DNA from: Ktedonobacter robiniae
Lineage (GTDB): Bacteria > Chloroflexota > Ktedonobacteria > Ktedonobacterales > Ktedonobacteraceae
Length of the DNA: 64,000 bases
Direction of reading: 5' to 3'
NCBI RefSeq assembly: GCF_016587375.1
Contig: NZ_BNJG01000002.1
Location: 62,001 to 126,000, forward strand
The position numbers were made by a program, and so were the translations under genes. This document shows, piece after piece, positions 58,940 to 64,000 of the stretch. The notes below the pieces were generated by a model, which had not been told where the DNA came from, ran no database searches, and was given only the letters and a program-made list of their open reading frames with translations. Numbering within the stretch: position 1 is the stretch's first letter; each line of letters starts with the position of its first letter.

Positions 58940-60357
58940 TTAGACAAAAGAAAACAAAAGGCACCCCAACCTTGCGGAGGGCTGCCTCAAAGAAGTAAAG
59001 TTCTTGTAATTACAAAACCCAAAAAGGACTTTGCTTCCATGGACAGTTGTACCACATTGAAAGGATTTCGTCACGAGGCCTATGCCTGTTTTCTGCGATC
59101 TGCGGACGCGTTGTGGAATGCGGTGGATGCTCTCATGAGCACCCCGCAAGCCACCTCCTTTGCTGAACTCTCGCAATCGTTGTGGTTTGAGCGCAAATGG
59201 CCCAGCCTCTACAAAGCGTTTGTCAGAGGACGCATTGATGAAGGGCGCTTGCGAAGCATCTTCGTACGCTACCTCAAGCCACCAAAGCCGGGGAGCTGGG
59301 TATGGATCGGGATTGATGCCAGTAGCATTGCCCGTGCTGAGGCAGCCACCTCGGCAGATCGGACGGCTCAACACGTGCCGAATCTGCCTGAGTGTAAGAA
59401 GCCCGTGACCTTTGGCTGGCAGTTCTCGACCGTGGTCGCCTTGCCAAGCGTTCCCAGTAGCTGGACCTACATCTTGGATCAACGACGAGTGGATTCGCAG
59501 ACCACAGCCATTGAAGTCGCTTACGAGCAACTGGCGAGCCTGGTTCCCCAATTGGGAGCCAAGGCCATTGTCTTGCTGGATCGAGGCTACGATGCGACCT
59601 GGTTGTGGTGTCGCTGTAGCGGCTTGCAGGCGGGTGTGCTGGGTCGGCTCAAAAGCAACCGCTGCCTGTATCGGGAGGCTCCCCCACCAACGGGGAAAAG
59701 AGGAGCCCCACGCAAAGATGGAGACAAGCTCCAACCCAAAGACACGAGTACGCATGGACACCCTGATGGGGTCTTTAGCGGTACCGATACCAAGGGTCGC
59801 CCGGTGCAAGTCACCTTCTGGAAGCACATGCATGTGAAAGCCGCTCGCTGGCTGCAACTGACCGTGGTCCGTGTGGTGCGGCCTCATGCCAGCAACAAGG
59901 AACGCGATCCCCGTAGCAGTTGGTTTGTCTGGATTGGGGATCAAGAAGCCGATGTGGTGCAGATTGCCTTGGGCTATGTGCTGCGCTTTGGCCAGGAGCA
60001 TGGCTATCGCTTTGACAAACAGGCGCTCTTGTGGGAGCAAGCTCGTTTGCGCACTCCTGAACAATTCGAGCGCTGGAGCCAGGTGGTTGCCATTGTCCAC
60101 AATCAGCTGGTCTTGGCACGTGGCTTGGTGCAACCCCAGTTGCGTCCCTGGGAAAATCGAGAGCGGCAGCCCACGCCTCAGCAGATCAGACGCGGCATGG
60201 ACAAATTGTTGCGCACCCTGGGGACTCCTGCTTGTGCCCCTCAACCACGCGGAAAATCGAAAGGCCGCCAAAAAGGGGAGCGGGTGAAGAAGGCCGAGCG
60301 CTTTGCCGTCATTCGCAAAAGGCCAAAGCTGCCTCACCTTGTTCCATTGTGATCGCA
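58940..60357 (+). mobile_element. DDE insertion element in a GNAT gene
   Basis: 1.42 kb. It encodes one transposase and separates the two halves of the acetyltransferase gene, which brackets its boundaries closely. Short similar words (GGCTGCCTCA / AGCTGCCTCA) occur near both ends, but I could not define clean inverted repeats or the duplication by eye. Confidence 0.75.
59039..60352 (+). CDS. IS4/IS701-like DDE transposase
   Basis: 437 residues. The first acid is in WVWIGIDASSIARAEA and the second in AIVLLDRGYDATWL. The third lies in the C-terminal part, near LRFGQEHGYRFDKQALLWEQ. Between them is the LGRLKSNRCLYREAPPPTGK and RPVQVTFWKHMHVKAARWLQ region of the IS4-like insertion domain. The tail is basic (PRGKSKGRQKGERVKKAERF). 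I assign the DDE superfamily with confidence; the exact IS family is uncertain. Confidence 0.85.
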   Translation: MDSCTTLKGFRHEAYACFLRSADALWNAVDALMSTPQATSFAELSQSLWFERKWPSLYKAFVRGRIDEGRLRSIFVRYLKPPKPGSWVWIGIDASSIARAEAATSADRTAQHVPNLPECKKPVTFGWQFSTVVALPSVPSSWTYILDQRRVDSQTTAIEVAYEQLASLVPQLGAKAIVLLDRGYDATWLWCRCSGLQAGVLGRLKSNRCLYREAPPPTGKRGAPRKDGDKLQPKDTSTHGHPDGVFSGTDTKGRPVQVTFWKHMHVKAARWLQLTVVRVVRPHASNKERDPRSSWFVWIGDQEADVVQIALGYVLRFGQEHGYRFDKQALLWEQARLRTPEQFERWSQVVAIVHNQLVLARGLVQPQLRPWENRERQPTPQQIRRGMDKLLRTLGTPACAPQPRGKSKGRQKGERVKKAERFAVIRKRPKLPHLVPL

Positions 60358-60548: not shown

Positions 60549-60860
60549 GTGAATAGCGGCAAGAGAACTACTTTGCAGAAGGAAGGGTATTCGATATGTG
60601 TCCATGCTCAGAGCATTGATGTTGTCTTACCTCATCAGGTGAGTATGCATCATGCGCTCCAAATCAATCAGGCAGGACTGTATCTGGATGGGATTGAAGA
60701 TGTTGAGGAAGACGGAACCGTCGTCTTTACTGATGAGGCGATGATGTTTTACCGAGATATATTCGGCTATGAGTGTAAGCGCTTACCTCTTTCAGAGGTT
60801 GAAGAGAGGGCAATGGAATTACAGGAGCGATACCTTGTACTCACACATCGGTCTTCATAA
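60549..60860 (+). CDS. hypothetical protein
   Basis: 103 residues (GTG start). There is a hydrophobic-polar alternation around SIDVVLPHQVSMHHALQINQ and an acidic helical part EDVEEDGTVVFTDEAMMFYR. No family recognised, no membrane segment. It faces the convergent phosphatase gene. Confidence 0.45.
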   Translation: MNSGKRTTLQKEGYSICVHAQSIDVVLPHQVSMHHALQINQAGLYLDGIEDVEEDGTVVFTDEAMMFYRDIFGYECKRLPLSEVEERAMELQERYLVLTHRSS

Positions 60861-60979: not shown

Positions 60980-61831
60980 TTAGCATGGTTGATACAAAAC
61001 ATGGATTGCACTTATATCATCTGGCTTTGCGCGAAAATCAGGTTGTTGAGAACGATGATACGCGGCAGCTACCAGATTTCGCGCGGTACACGCTCCTGAA
61101 GTTGACAAAATCTCTTCTATTTCCTGACCAGTAAGATTGTCATGAACTCCATCCGTGCAGAACACAATGCGATCTCCAGGCTGAAGGGCAAGGCAACGCG
61201 TCGGAATCGACGCAAAGTCAGACCATCCTACTGCACAGGTGATTTTATTCCTTTTTTCAAAGTGCTCCTTGTCACATGGCAATAAATCATGTGCGCTTCT
61301 GGCTTGTTCAATACGCCAGCTCTCGTCTCTACTCAAGTAGCCTCGCTCAATAGCGAACGAAAAGTATCCATGATCTTCCGTGAGTCGTTGGAGGGATTGC
61401 CCATTTCGCAAAAGATAGATTCTGCTATCACCAATATGAGCCAAATAGAAAAAGGCCTGAGATTTCAGGACAGAGAGGATGCCAAGTGCAACCGTTGTTG
61501 CGGGTCTTCTTTGTTCCGGGGGGAGGACCAGTGAAGCAATGGTTGTGTCCGCGAGCTGTATCAATTGCTGCAACAGTGCTTCTCTTTCAATATGCCCAAG
61601 CAAACAATCAGTTTCAGGTAAAGCTTCAAAGGCAGAGGAGATTGTCATGGCAGCGAGATGTGAAACCAGAAGATTTCTATCTCTTCCTCCCACTGAATCA
61701 AATACCCCAAGCAGACCTCTCTCTCCATTCACCAGAACATAGTCTTCACTTTGAGATCGCTGCTCGTGCATTTGATTGGCACTATCAATGAGAAAGTGGT
61801 TTAACTGTAAGCCCATCACATGCTGATTCAA
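60980..61831 (-). CDS. PP2C-type serine/threonine phosphatase
   Basis: 283 residues with the PPM/PP2C metal-binding motifs: QSEDYVLVNGERGLLGVFDS (first Asp/Gly), ATTVALGILSVL, YLAHIGDSRIYLLRNGQSLQ, LTEDHG, RIVFCTDGVHDNLT and the final KPDDISAIHV. All metal-coordinating aspartates are present, so it is probably active. No kinase or STAS-type partner is next to it. It precedes the DUF692 operon on the same strand, with a 180-bp gap. Confidence 0.92.
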   Translation of the reverse strand: MNQHVMGLQLNHFLIDSANQMHEQRSQSEDYVLVNGERGLLGVFDSVGGRDRNLLVSHLAAMTISSAFEALPETDCLLGHIEREALLQQLIQLADTTIASLVLPPEQRRPATTVALGILSVLKSQAFFYLAHIGDSRIYLLRNGQSLQRLTEDHGYFSFAIERGYLSRDESWRIEQARSAHDLLPCDKEHFEKRNKITCAVGWSDFASIPTRCLALQPGDRIVFCTDGVHDNLTGQEIEEILSTSGACTARNLVAAAYHRSQQPDFRAKPDDISAIHVLYQPC

Positions 61832-62008: not shown

Positions 62009-62881
62009 TTATGAAGAAACGCATTCATTTGGCATATCATTCCTCTGTTGTCGACGTACAATAGCACGTGCCTGATCCATTTGTTGGAGCAGATCAGTGA
62101 TGGGAGGGAAATGGGCATCATGCTCAAAGATAACGCTTTTTACCTGACACAGTGATACCAGGTATTCAAAAAGGCTGAAAATATTGGGGGGCACAAGCTC
62201 GCTGTGTCCATCAACATACCAACCACCTCTCTGATATCCGCCAGCAAGATGGACTTGCACGAGATGTGAGAGTGGCATGTGCGCTACAAACTGTCGGGCG
62301 TCAAATGCATGATTCGCTGCATTAATGAAGACATTAGTGACATCAAGCAAAATACCACAATCTGTTGCCTCGACCAACCTTTGAAAAAATTCGGTCTGGC
62401 TCATTGGGCTGGAAGGGATTTCCAGCATATAGGTGACGTTCTCCAGAATGAGTGGTTTCTCTAGATAGTCTTGAAGCATCTGAACACGACGGATGACGTG
62501 CTGCAATAATTCCTCTGAGAACCAGAGGGGCGCGAGGTGACCAATGTATCTCCCAGGCGTTTTGGTCATGCACAGATGTTCGCTATAGTAGGGAGCCTTC
62601 GTCACATCCGAAATGCGCTTGATGGCTTTGAGGTACGGTGTCTCGAGCTGCATCATCGATCCTATTGATAAATCCACTCCATGGGGAATGACAGGGAAGT
62701 GATCACACAGCTCTTCTAATGATCGATAGGCATCCGGGTGTGAGAGATAGTTCTCAGTAATAATTTCCAAAAAATCAATACGATCTCGGTTGGAAAATAT
62801 GCCCTCTCTCAGTTCTGAGCGATAGCCTATTCCGACCCCTAGCGCCGGGATAGCCGCTGTGTAATTGGTTATTTCTCGCAT
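62009..62881 (-). CDS. DUF692 (MbnB/TglH-like) iron-dependent oxidase
   Basis: 290 residues of the DUF692 TIM-barrel family. Visible are IPALGVGIGYRSELREGI, DFLEIITENYLSHPDAYRSL, PVIPHGVDLSIGSMMQLETP, YYSEHLCMTK, LILENVTYMLE, CGILLDVTNVFINAANHAFD and VQVHLAGGYQRGGWYVDGHS. The histidines, glutamates and aspartates expected to bind two or three iron ions are all there. Characterised members modify cysteines of ribosomal peptides. It is the last gene of a compact minus-strand operon and overlaps the start of the 71-residue Cys-rich gene's 3' end by 13 nt. Confidence 0.92.
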   Translation of the reverse strand: MREITNYTAAIPALGVGIGYRSELREGIFSNRDRIDFLEIITENYLSHPDAYRSLEELCDHFPVIPHGVDLSIGSMMQLETPYLKAIKRISDVTKAPYYSEHLCMTKTPGRYIGHLAPLWFSEELLQHVIRRVQMLQDYLEKPLILENVTYMLEIPSSPMSQTEFFQRLVEATDCGILLDVTNVFINAANHAFDARQFVAHMPLSHLVQVHLAGGYQRGGWYVDGHSELVPPNIFSLFEYLVSLCQVKSVIFEHDAHFPPITDLLQQMDQARAIVRRQQRNDMPNECVSS

Positions 62882-63084
62882 TGATGACTCCTTTCTTCTT
62901 GTGTCCAGAGAAAGCTCGAAAGGATGGTACGTGTGTCAGCAGACATGAATCGACGCCATAAAGCGCACTGTTGACAGCGTTGGCACCCTGTATCTACCAT
63001 CGTTCTCTGTTGTTGGTTCTTGCCAACGTGCTCAAGGCGAAACCGAGAGAGAGGAACTTGTTTCCCAGAGGTATCTTTGATCAT
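62869..63084 (-). CDS. small Cys-containing protein, candidate RiPP precursor
   Basis: 71 residues. The N-terminus (MIKDTSGKQVPLSRFRLEHV) is polar, as for a leader peptide. The centre has three cysteines in CQRCQQC within DTGCQRCQQCALWRRFM, and a further cysteine lies at the C-terminus. Its ATG overlaps the TGA of the upstream gene (ATGA) and its end overlaps the DUF692 start, so all three are translationally coupled. DUF692 enzymes act on short peptides of this kind, which makes this the best precursor candidate. Direct family evidence is lacking. Confidence 0.5.
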   Translation of the reverse strand: MIKDTSGKQVPLSRFRLEHVGKNQQQRTMVDTGCQRCQQCALWRRFMSADTRTILSSFLWTQEERSHQCEK

Positions 63085-63460
63085 CCGTGTACTCCCACGA
63101 TATGTTTTTCTTGGAGCAATGTCAGCATGGCAAGGATATCGTCGGCCAGGTCAGTTTCGCCTAATTGCTGTTCCGCTTCCCGAATCACATCCTCTACTCT
63201 CGCTTCTTGCTGACAGATATCTAACAAAAGCGATGTTTCCTCGTTCAGGGTCAAAACATTCATAGTGAGTGAATGTCTCTCACGTTGGAACACCAAGTGA
63301 TATTGGCCGGGTTGTATCAAATGGTTGTCCAGAGGCTGTTGTTGTACCAGGGCAGCAACGAGGTCAACGACTGGATAGGAAAAGGTTTCGCGATAGATTC
63401 CTGGAAGGAGAAAAAGAGAGGCATTTCTATGGAGTGGTGGTGGTGGTTGTCCCGCTTTGA
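63081..63460 (-). pseudogene. DUF692-partner-like protein, N-terminus cut off
   Basis: The frame from about 63460 reads FLLPGIYRETFSYPVVDLVA, ALVQQQPLDNHLIQPGQYHL, then LTMNVLTLNEETSLLLDICQ and DILAMLTLLQEKHIVGVHG. The pattern of a beta strand (YHLVFQRERHSLTMNVLTL) followed by helices is like the C-terminal domain of MbnC/DUF2063 partner proteins. No ATG start is evident near 63320 (a TTG is possible), and the upstream part is replaced by an IS3 end at 63465-63482. Family assignment is tentative. Confidence 0.35.
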
Positions 63461-63481: not shown

Positions 63482-63556
63482 TCAACGCTTCATGATCTCA
63501 AACTGCACTGGGCTGAGATAGCCCAGCGTGGAGTGCTTGCGCACGCGATTGTTAAC
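63482..63556 (-). pseudogene. IS3-family OrfB C-terminal end
   Basis: NNRVRKHSTLGYLSPVQFEI, then MKR and a stop, is the conserved C-terminus of IS3-type OrfB proteins. The coding sequence is broken at 63556, where the group II intron begins, so the intron has inserted into the transposase gene. Confidence 0.8.
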
Positions 63557-64000
63557 CTAAGCGAGGGAGTCACCTCCCCCGCTCGGCTTCAAAACCGTGC
63601 TTGAGGGTTTCCCGTCACACGGCTCCTCAATGATCGGGTCTTTGGCACAGATACCATTGACACGTCGGGCGTGTCGTTCATCATGGCAATGTCGGTGGAG
63701 CAAAAATTTGTTACTGAGTTCTTCGCCGCCGCCTTCACTTTTTGGGGTAATGTGATCGATTTCAATGACATCGGTGTCTTGAAAGAGCAATTCACACCAG
63801 CGACATTTCCCTTGCTGTTTCTGCAAGAGCACTCCCTTGACGCCATTGCACAGGGGATGAGTTTTGAGTCGTTGGCTCCAGTAGAGAAGGTCGCCATTGT
63901 AAGGGCTGGCCGCTCCCTTGACTTTGATGTGTCTCTGGACATGTGCTTGTCCGTGTTTCCACAGCTTTGCTTGCTGGCTTTGAAACTGCCAGCCCTGTCC
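63557..64000 (-). mobile_element. ltrA: group II intron 2, 3' part, maturase C-terminus
   Basis: The frame is open to the window edge: AHVQRHIKVKGAASPYNGDL, WSQRLKTHPLCNGVKGVLLQ, then an HNH endonuclease CRWCELLFQDTDVIEIDHIT with HRHCHDERHARR. It ends at about 63557. The intron RNA follows: domain V at 63592-63625 (GAGCCGTGTGAC ... AAGCACGGTT on the minus strand) and a domain VI-like hairpin at 63561-63588. The rest of the intron lies beyond 64000. Confidence 0.85.
63592..63625 (-). ncRNA. group II intron 2 domain V
   Basis: A 34-nt hairpin beginning GAGCCGTGTGAC, with a GGAAAC loop, and ending AGCACGGTT on the minus strand. This matches the catalytic domain V pattern of group II introns. 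It overlaps the end of the maturase reading frame. Confidence 0.85.

Follow-up and report, generated by a model that had tools for sequence, protein, structure and literature searches.

MNIO (DUF692) enzymes carry out unusual chemistry on the cysteines of peptides. The described systems closest to the locus analyzed here are TglHI/TglA, which is responsible for the 3-thiaglutamate pearlin, the bufferin/HvfB/NGO1945 group with its PME-type 1 partner proteins, and ApyHI, the aminopyruvatide system with PME-type 2 partners. In TglH, iron is held by His71, His107, Glu151, Asp184, Asn187, His216, Asp229, His231 and Glu258, and residues 33–51 of the peptide TglA suffice, with residues 33–35 located at the partner TglI and the C-terminal cysteine (51) undergoing the reaction (PMC10880893). 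Under the name adjamnio, the 2025 MNIO landscape paper describes small proteins whose genes neighbour those of MNIOs, CxxC being carried by one set; its main text makes no mention of a glycosyltransferase, of Chloroflexi or of a Nif11 leader (PMC12452194). Fusions of an RRE to PF00535 (GT2-type) glycosyltransferases have also been reported (PMC12710340).

The window, i.e. the whole 64,000-nucleotide stretch analyzed (G000:C2:62001-126000), belongs to a 10.7-Mb Ktedonobacter genome and ends in an operon-like set of minus-strand genes, comprising the remnant of a partner gene, a 71-aa ORF, an MNIO gene and then a gene for a PP2C-type phosphatase (Table 1). We consider it rather probable that this set is the decayed copy of an MNIO-plus-glycosyltransferase RiPP cluster in which one RRE serves both enzymes. 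The best explanation for the loci compared is that the complete form of the cluster contains one or more genes for Cys-rich precursors, a glycosyltransferase joined to an RRE-bearing MNIO partner domain, a CxxCxxC peptide and the MNIO.

Such a cluster shares with TglHI/TglA an MNIO with nine iron ligands, the TglI partner fold and a recognition strand followed by cysteine, but differs in its Cys-rich peptides, in the glycosyltransferase fused to the partner and in the extra constant CxxCxxC peptide. Cys-rich precursors and an NGO1945-like partner fold are common to the bufferin/HvfB/NGO1945 systems, and BufB and HvfB give the best NCBIfam matches to the MNIO, which nevertheless falls below their cut-offs; in contrast to those systems, the partner gives no DUF2063 Pfam match, and inspection by eye reveals no Sec-type signal sequence in the precursors listed below, some of which carry leaders of the Nif11 or GG type. 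ApyHI likewise has signal-less precursors, and along its full length the partner domain shows weak similarity to ApyI (up to 1e-7), whereas the MNIO stays below the ApyH cut-off, the cores are Cys-rich and a glycosyltransferase is fused. The fusions of PMC12710340 also join an RRE to a glycosyltransferase, but here the enzyme is of the PF00534/GT4 type and coupled to an MNIO partner domain. The adjamnio, as presented in the main text of PMC12452194, resemble the 71-aa peptide in being small proteins beside an MNIO. All parts of the cluster belong to known kinds. The full-text literature searched contained no description of an MNIO/DUF692 system with a glycosyltransferase; subscription papers and supplements were outside its scope, so the apparent novelty of the MNIO-partner/glycosyltransferase fusion is provisional.

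Table 1. Features at the end of the window, with strand and basis of assignment
Feature	Position	Strand	Basis
PP2C-type phosphatase adjoining MNIO	60980..61831	-	PF00481 E=3.6e-8
MNIO (DUF692) oxidase, 290 aa, frame complete	62009..62881	-	PF05114 and nine ligands
71-aa constant peptide	62869..63084	-	Conserved in eight loci; dN/dS; motif and spacing
Partner remnant, RRE/PqqD-like C-terminal end only	63081 to ~63441	-	Similarity to C3-copy partner; PqqD E=5e-4
Putative IS3-like transposase C-terminus fragment (NNRVRKHSTLGYLSPVQFEIMK)	63488..63551	-	Direct reading of the sequence
Group II intron 3' end (domain V)	63552..63628	-	Rfam RF00029, 46 bits, E=1.2e-6 (L010:6552-6628)

The oxidase and its partner domain

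The oxidase scored 267.5 bits against PF05114 (gathering score 25; E=1.4e-79), placing it within the family. The nine TglH ligands correspond to residues H67, H102, E147, D180, N183, H211, D224, H226 and E253, all of which are invariant in an alignment of seven MNIO sequences. The profile built from these seven sequences matched PDB 3bww, TglH and MbnB, the similarity to TglH being only distant (E=4e-35). Among the NCBIfam equivalogs, BufB gave the best match, with HvfB also closest, and every cut-off was missed: 228.7 vs 310 for BufB, 207.6 vs 360 for HvfB, 55.9 vs 325 for MbnB, 63.4 vs 600 for ChrH and 124.2 vs 400 for ApyH. In an unrooted tree, where L068 forms a long branch, the glycosyltransferase-linked MNIOs lie on one side of a supported branch and four MNIOs without a glycosyltransferase on the other. 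Four acidobacterial loci with short partners (L064–L067) encode MNIOs and gave no glycosyltransferase match; they were kept for comparison only.

Upstream of the oxidase and the 71-aa ORF, the partner remnant is 86% identical to residues 259–376 of the partner fragment in the second copy of the locus in the same genome (L009, the C3 copy), and the longest ORF with a start codon within it spans 63081-63320 (79 aa, TTG start). What survives of this MNIO partner is its RRE-like end. We modelled the intact partner domain of a relative (279 aa) with moderate confidence (mean pLDDT 64), and the predicted fold is TglI-like: the top Foldseek matches in the PDB were TglI (8hi7, E=2e-5; 8hci) and NGO1945 (3dee, E=9e-5), followed by weaker matches to leader-bound RREs. 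With a helical domain, an RRE, this fold and an adjoining MNIO, the intact homologue has the features of a PME type 2/TglI-like partner. A search of the plasmid collection with the partner domain returned no match. The first-pass annotation had proposed a DUF692 enzyme with its metal ligands and a partner-like protein truncated at the 5' side, and these assignments hold.

The first ~62 residues of the partner domain (L016:8962-9150) resemble the Os1348/Franean1_4349-type 'RiPP precursor' proteins (NF038399, PF14407), short open frames of which are encoded by ~25 Chloroflexota genomes, suggesting that MNIO partners and this family of annotated precursors may have a common ancestor. Most Chloroflexota matches of the partner profile are small proteins of this type, aligned over the first 60 residues only, and were not counted as members.

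Glycosyltransferase–partner fusion in intact relatives

A search for relatives with the same three genes and an intact partner had been suggested at first pass; in the intact loci the partner is usually the C-terminal half of a glycosyltransferase fusion, and because the glycosyltransferase half is missing from the window copy, this main departure from known MNIO systems could not have been seen there. As read from the sequences, a single frame of 714–755 aa in L011 (Ktedonobacter sp. SOSP1-85), L012 (G036), L014 (Ktedonosporobacter rubrisoli) and L020, and of ~706 aa in L063 (the second of two Anaerolineae-class genomes), encodes a GT4-type glycosyltransferase in its N-terminal half and the MNIO partner domain in its C-terminal half. 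The glycosyltransferase is a separate gene in L019 (an Anaerolineae MAG), L062 (Acidobacteriota) and L068; profile comparison aligns the RRE-like tail of the unfused enzyme with the RRE of the partner (hhalign, 91% probability, E=1e-6), and the tail matches PqqD and HvfC as well. Matches in the relatives to the GT4 Pfam families ranged from 1e-9 to 1e-12 for PF00534 and reached down to 9e-12 for PF13579. The nine glycosyltransferase domains, which come from three classes, are 42–67% identical to the first in the alignment. They share a conserved FLER.F...H.P...E, in which the two glutamates are spaced more widely than in the usual E-x7-E donor-site motif, leaving the activity uncertain. A PDB sequence search with the domain gave no match at E<=0.01.

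Among the NCBIfam glycosyltransferases, those of the exopolysaccharide GT4 type come nearest, although every score lies far under the cut-off, and the enzyme might accordingly act outside peptide maturation, in the synthesis of a polysaccharide or glycolipid, its fusion to the partner being a matter of chance. We regard this as quite improbable, considering that the same subfamily is tied to an MNIO, a partner and Cys precursors in two phyla, either fused or adjacent, that the unfused copies keep an RRE-like tail, and that a chance fusion of this kind is not expected to persist.

The richest cluster of this type found here is L062:3955-13867 in the Acidobacteriota genome G770, with two RRE-tailed glycosyltransferases, about a dozen near-repeated Cys-rich precursors with GG leaders and one MNIO; it would make a good model locus.

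Precursors, the constant peptide and a proposed mechanism

Precursor genes lie beside the glycosyltransferase in L009, L011, L012, L014, L019, L020, L062 and L068. L009, L011 and L012 encode a common peptide upstream of the glycosyltransferase with the core CKETC...TCKLECHSG(S/A)PF. The L014 precursor (...GCHCIACGGC...) is located downstream of a good ribosome-binding site, that of L020 reads FEIEEV...CSCTCIC, those of L019 are Nif11-leader peptides and that of L068 is CIICLICIICVVC, while the ~12 peptides of L062 have leaders of the GG type and cores of which YCTGCEGCDRCNGCDG is an example. An F-x-Φ-x-x-Φ motif is present 16–23 residues before the first cysteine in 15 of 17 precursors (it is missing from the other two) and in all eight members of the 71-aa family, compared with a shuffling expectation of ~1 per set; the pattern was written after the peptides had been seen, making these counts descriptive. 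The spacing from motif to cysteine in both kinds of peptide is close to that from RRE to cysteine in TglA. In the intact loci, short precursor genes encoding a leader motif and a core thus adjoin modifying enzymes, the arrangement of a RiPP cluster, in line with the RiPP-type system proposed at first pass.

The 71-aa family is present in one copy in each of eight loci from Ktedonobacteria, Anaerolineae and Acidobacteriota. Counterparts of the window ORF lie between partner and MNIO in L009, L011, L012, L014, L019, L063 and L062; a profile search of 16 genomes gave no strong matches beyond the known loci. Among the three Ktedonobacter copies differences accumulate at third codon positions, and dN/dS is 0.23–0.30 in the ORF's own frame vs 0.7–1.6 in the other frames, a substitution pattern that identifies the ORF as a true gene, with purifying selection confined to its own frame, and rules out its being out-of-frame noise. 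Homologues with a separate start and stop likewise rule out that it is the N-terminus of the MNIO. The first-pass annotation had correctly placed a separate gene for a Cys peptide between partner and oxidase, and the two outcomes it had named as fatal to its reading, an unconserved ORF or one belonging to the enzyme's N-terminus, did not occur. To its question whether CxxCxxC is variable or conserved, the alignment gives a clear answer: the initial Met, one Phe and GCxxCxxC are invariant, so that CxxCxxC is the constant part of the family. In the window peptide the recognition motif FRLEHV (residues 15–20) is followed by GCQRCQQC, with the first cysteine at position 34. The structure predicted from a shallow alignment is mostly disordered and of low confidence (pLDDT 53).

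As to the role of the peptide, the first-pass annotation treated it as the only, or at least the principal, precursor of the natural product in an MNIO system of three genes. With its leader-like motif and Cys core it adjoins the MNIO and is the sole candidate precursor in the window; yet intact loci carry other Cys-rich leader peptides next to the glycosyltransferase, which vary and in one case comprise about twelve with GG-type leaders, whereas the 71-aa type stays single and constant. We therefore judge this role very improbable, and a peptide adjoining an MNIO gene need not be the main precursor. An accessory function, in which the peptide would not be a substrate at all and would deliver iron or electrons, or occupy the RRE and so regulate or stabilize the complex, would fit a peptide that is constant while the precursors vary, always single-copy and encoded between partner and MNIO. 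In addition, a further cysteine ~28–33 residues downstream in six of the eight members recalls the C-x2-C-x2-C...C iron-sulphur pattern. However, L019 and L063 lack this distal cysteine, and in the Ktedonobacter loci and L012 the codon for it overlaps with the start codon of the MNIO gene, both of which weaken the ferredoxin-like reading; the peptide is predicted to be disordered; and it has the same motif as the precursors, at the same spacing. Furthermore, two related loci, L020 and L068, do without it, indicating that it is not always needed. Taken together, an accessory function appears unlikely. That the constant peptide is a substrate we consider likely, and it probably serves the same two enzymes as an invariant second substrate, sharing the motif and spacing of the variable precursors.

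In the mechanism we propose, the partner's terminal RRE would bind each peptide by the F-x-Φ-x-x-Φ strand of its leader, thereby placing the cysteines ~16–23 residues downstream into the MNIO active site, where they would be oxidized by iron and O2. Tethered to that RRE, the glycosyltransferase domain would then add a sugar to the same peptide. More tentatively, and with a likelihood we put somewhat below even, these loci may define a class of MNIO RiPPs that are glycosylated: one RRE on the glycosyltransferase–partner fusion would present Cys-rich peptides in turn to the oxidase and the sugar transferase, and the invariant CxxCxxC companion would itself be oxidized and would either be required for the variable products or accompany them. 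The intact loci of Ktedonobacter sp. SOSP1-85 and Ktedonosporobacter rubrisoli are ready test systems, which supply precursor candidates as well as a conserved peptide with a directly testable role. The SOSP1-85 set consists of the precursor (L011:6732-6935), the glycosyltransferase–partner fusion (L011:7176-9320), the constant peptide (L011:9317-9532) and the MNIO (L011:9520-10389).

State of the window copy

The 5' side of the partner gene in the window is cut by mobile DNA, namely an IS3-like transposase end, identified by reading, and a group II intron, identified with Rfam, leaving the C-terminal RRE-like end. The intron apparently sits in the IS3-like transposase gene, which itself cuts the partner gene; the intron end with its ORF occupies 63552-64000 of the window and continues beyond it (L010:6552-7379, minus strand), the ORF, which has an HNH-like stretch, running past the window end. 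Across the whole genome, a glycosyltransferase and a precursor gene are found in the C3 copy only, the former in two pieces split by a transposase-like gene. With the partner cut and both glycosyltransferase and precursor absent, the window retains the MNIO, the constant peptide, which is the only candidate precursor left, and an RRE-like remnant, i.e. an incomplete system.

These losses suggest that the window copy may be a mere pseudogene remnant with no present function, and the counterpart in K. racemifer, which has lost its 5' end and contains a 16-bp repeat that shifts the frame, points the same way. Conversely, the MNIO and 71-aa frames are intact with marks of selection, although the pairwise values reflect the whole history of the sequences, and the C3 copy could supply the partner domain, even though a transposase insertion interrupts the glycosyltransferase there. 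We give the loss of function a slightly better than even chance; such a remnant is compatible with the RiPP-system explanation for the family. As both glycosyltransferase copies are broken or missing in the window genome and the K. racemifer MNIO is a pseudogene, the system may be dispensable or dying in Ktedonobacter.

The K. racemifer pseudogene (L013:9200-10150) lacks its 5' end, its frame is shifted by the 16-bp direct repeat, and an insertion of ~2 kb follows it. Beside the remnant locus in the window lies a DDE-type transposase gene (59039-60352, plus strand; PF13546 E=1.2e-17). A 103-aa ORF (60549-60857, plus strand) is similar to the C-terminal end of a protein of 373 aa encoded close to the second copy (L009:14055-15176, minus strand) and is likely a truncated duplicate, which suggests a decayed segmental duplication. 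The PP2C-type phosphatase is a neighbour of the MNIO also in the Ktedonobacter loci and G036, and a phosphatase of this type (L067:8496-9767) is found independently near an MNIO without a glycosyltransferase in an Acidobacteriota genome.
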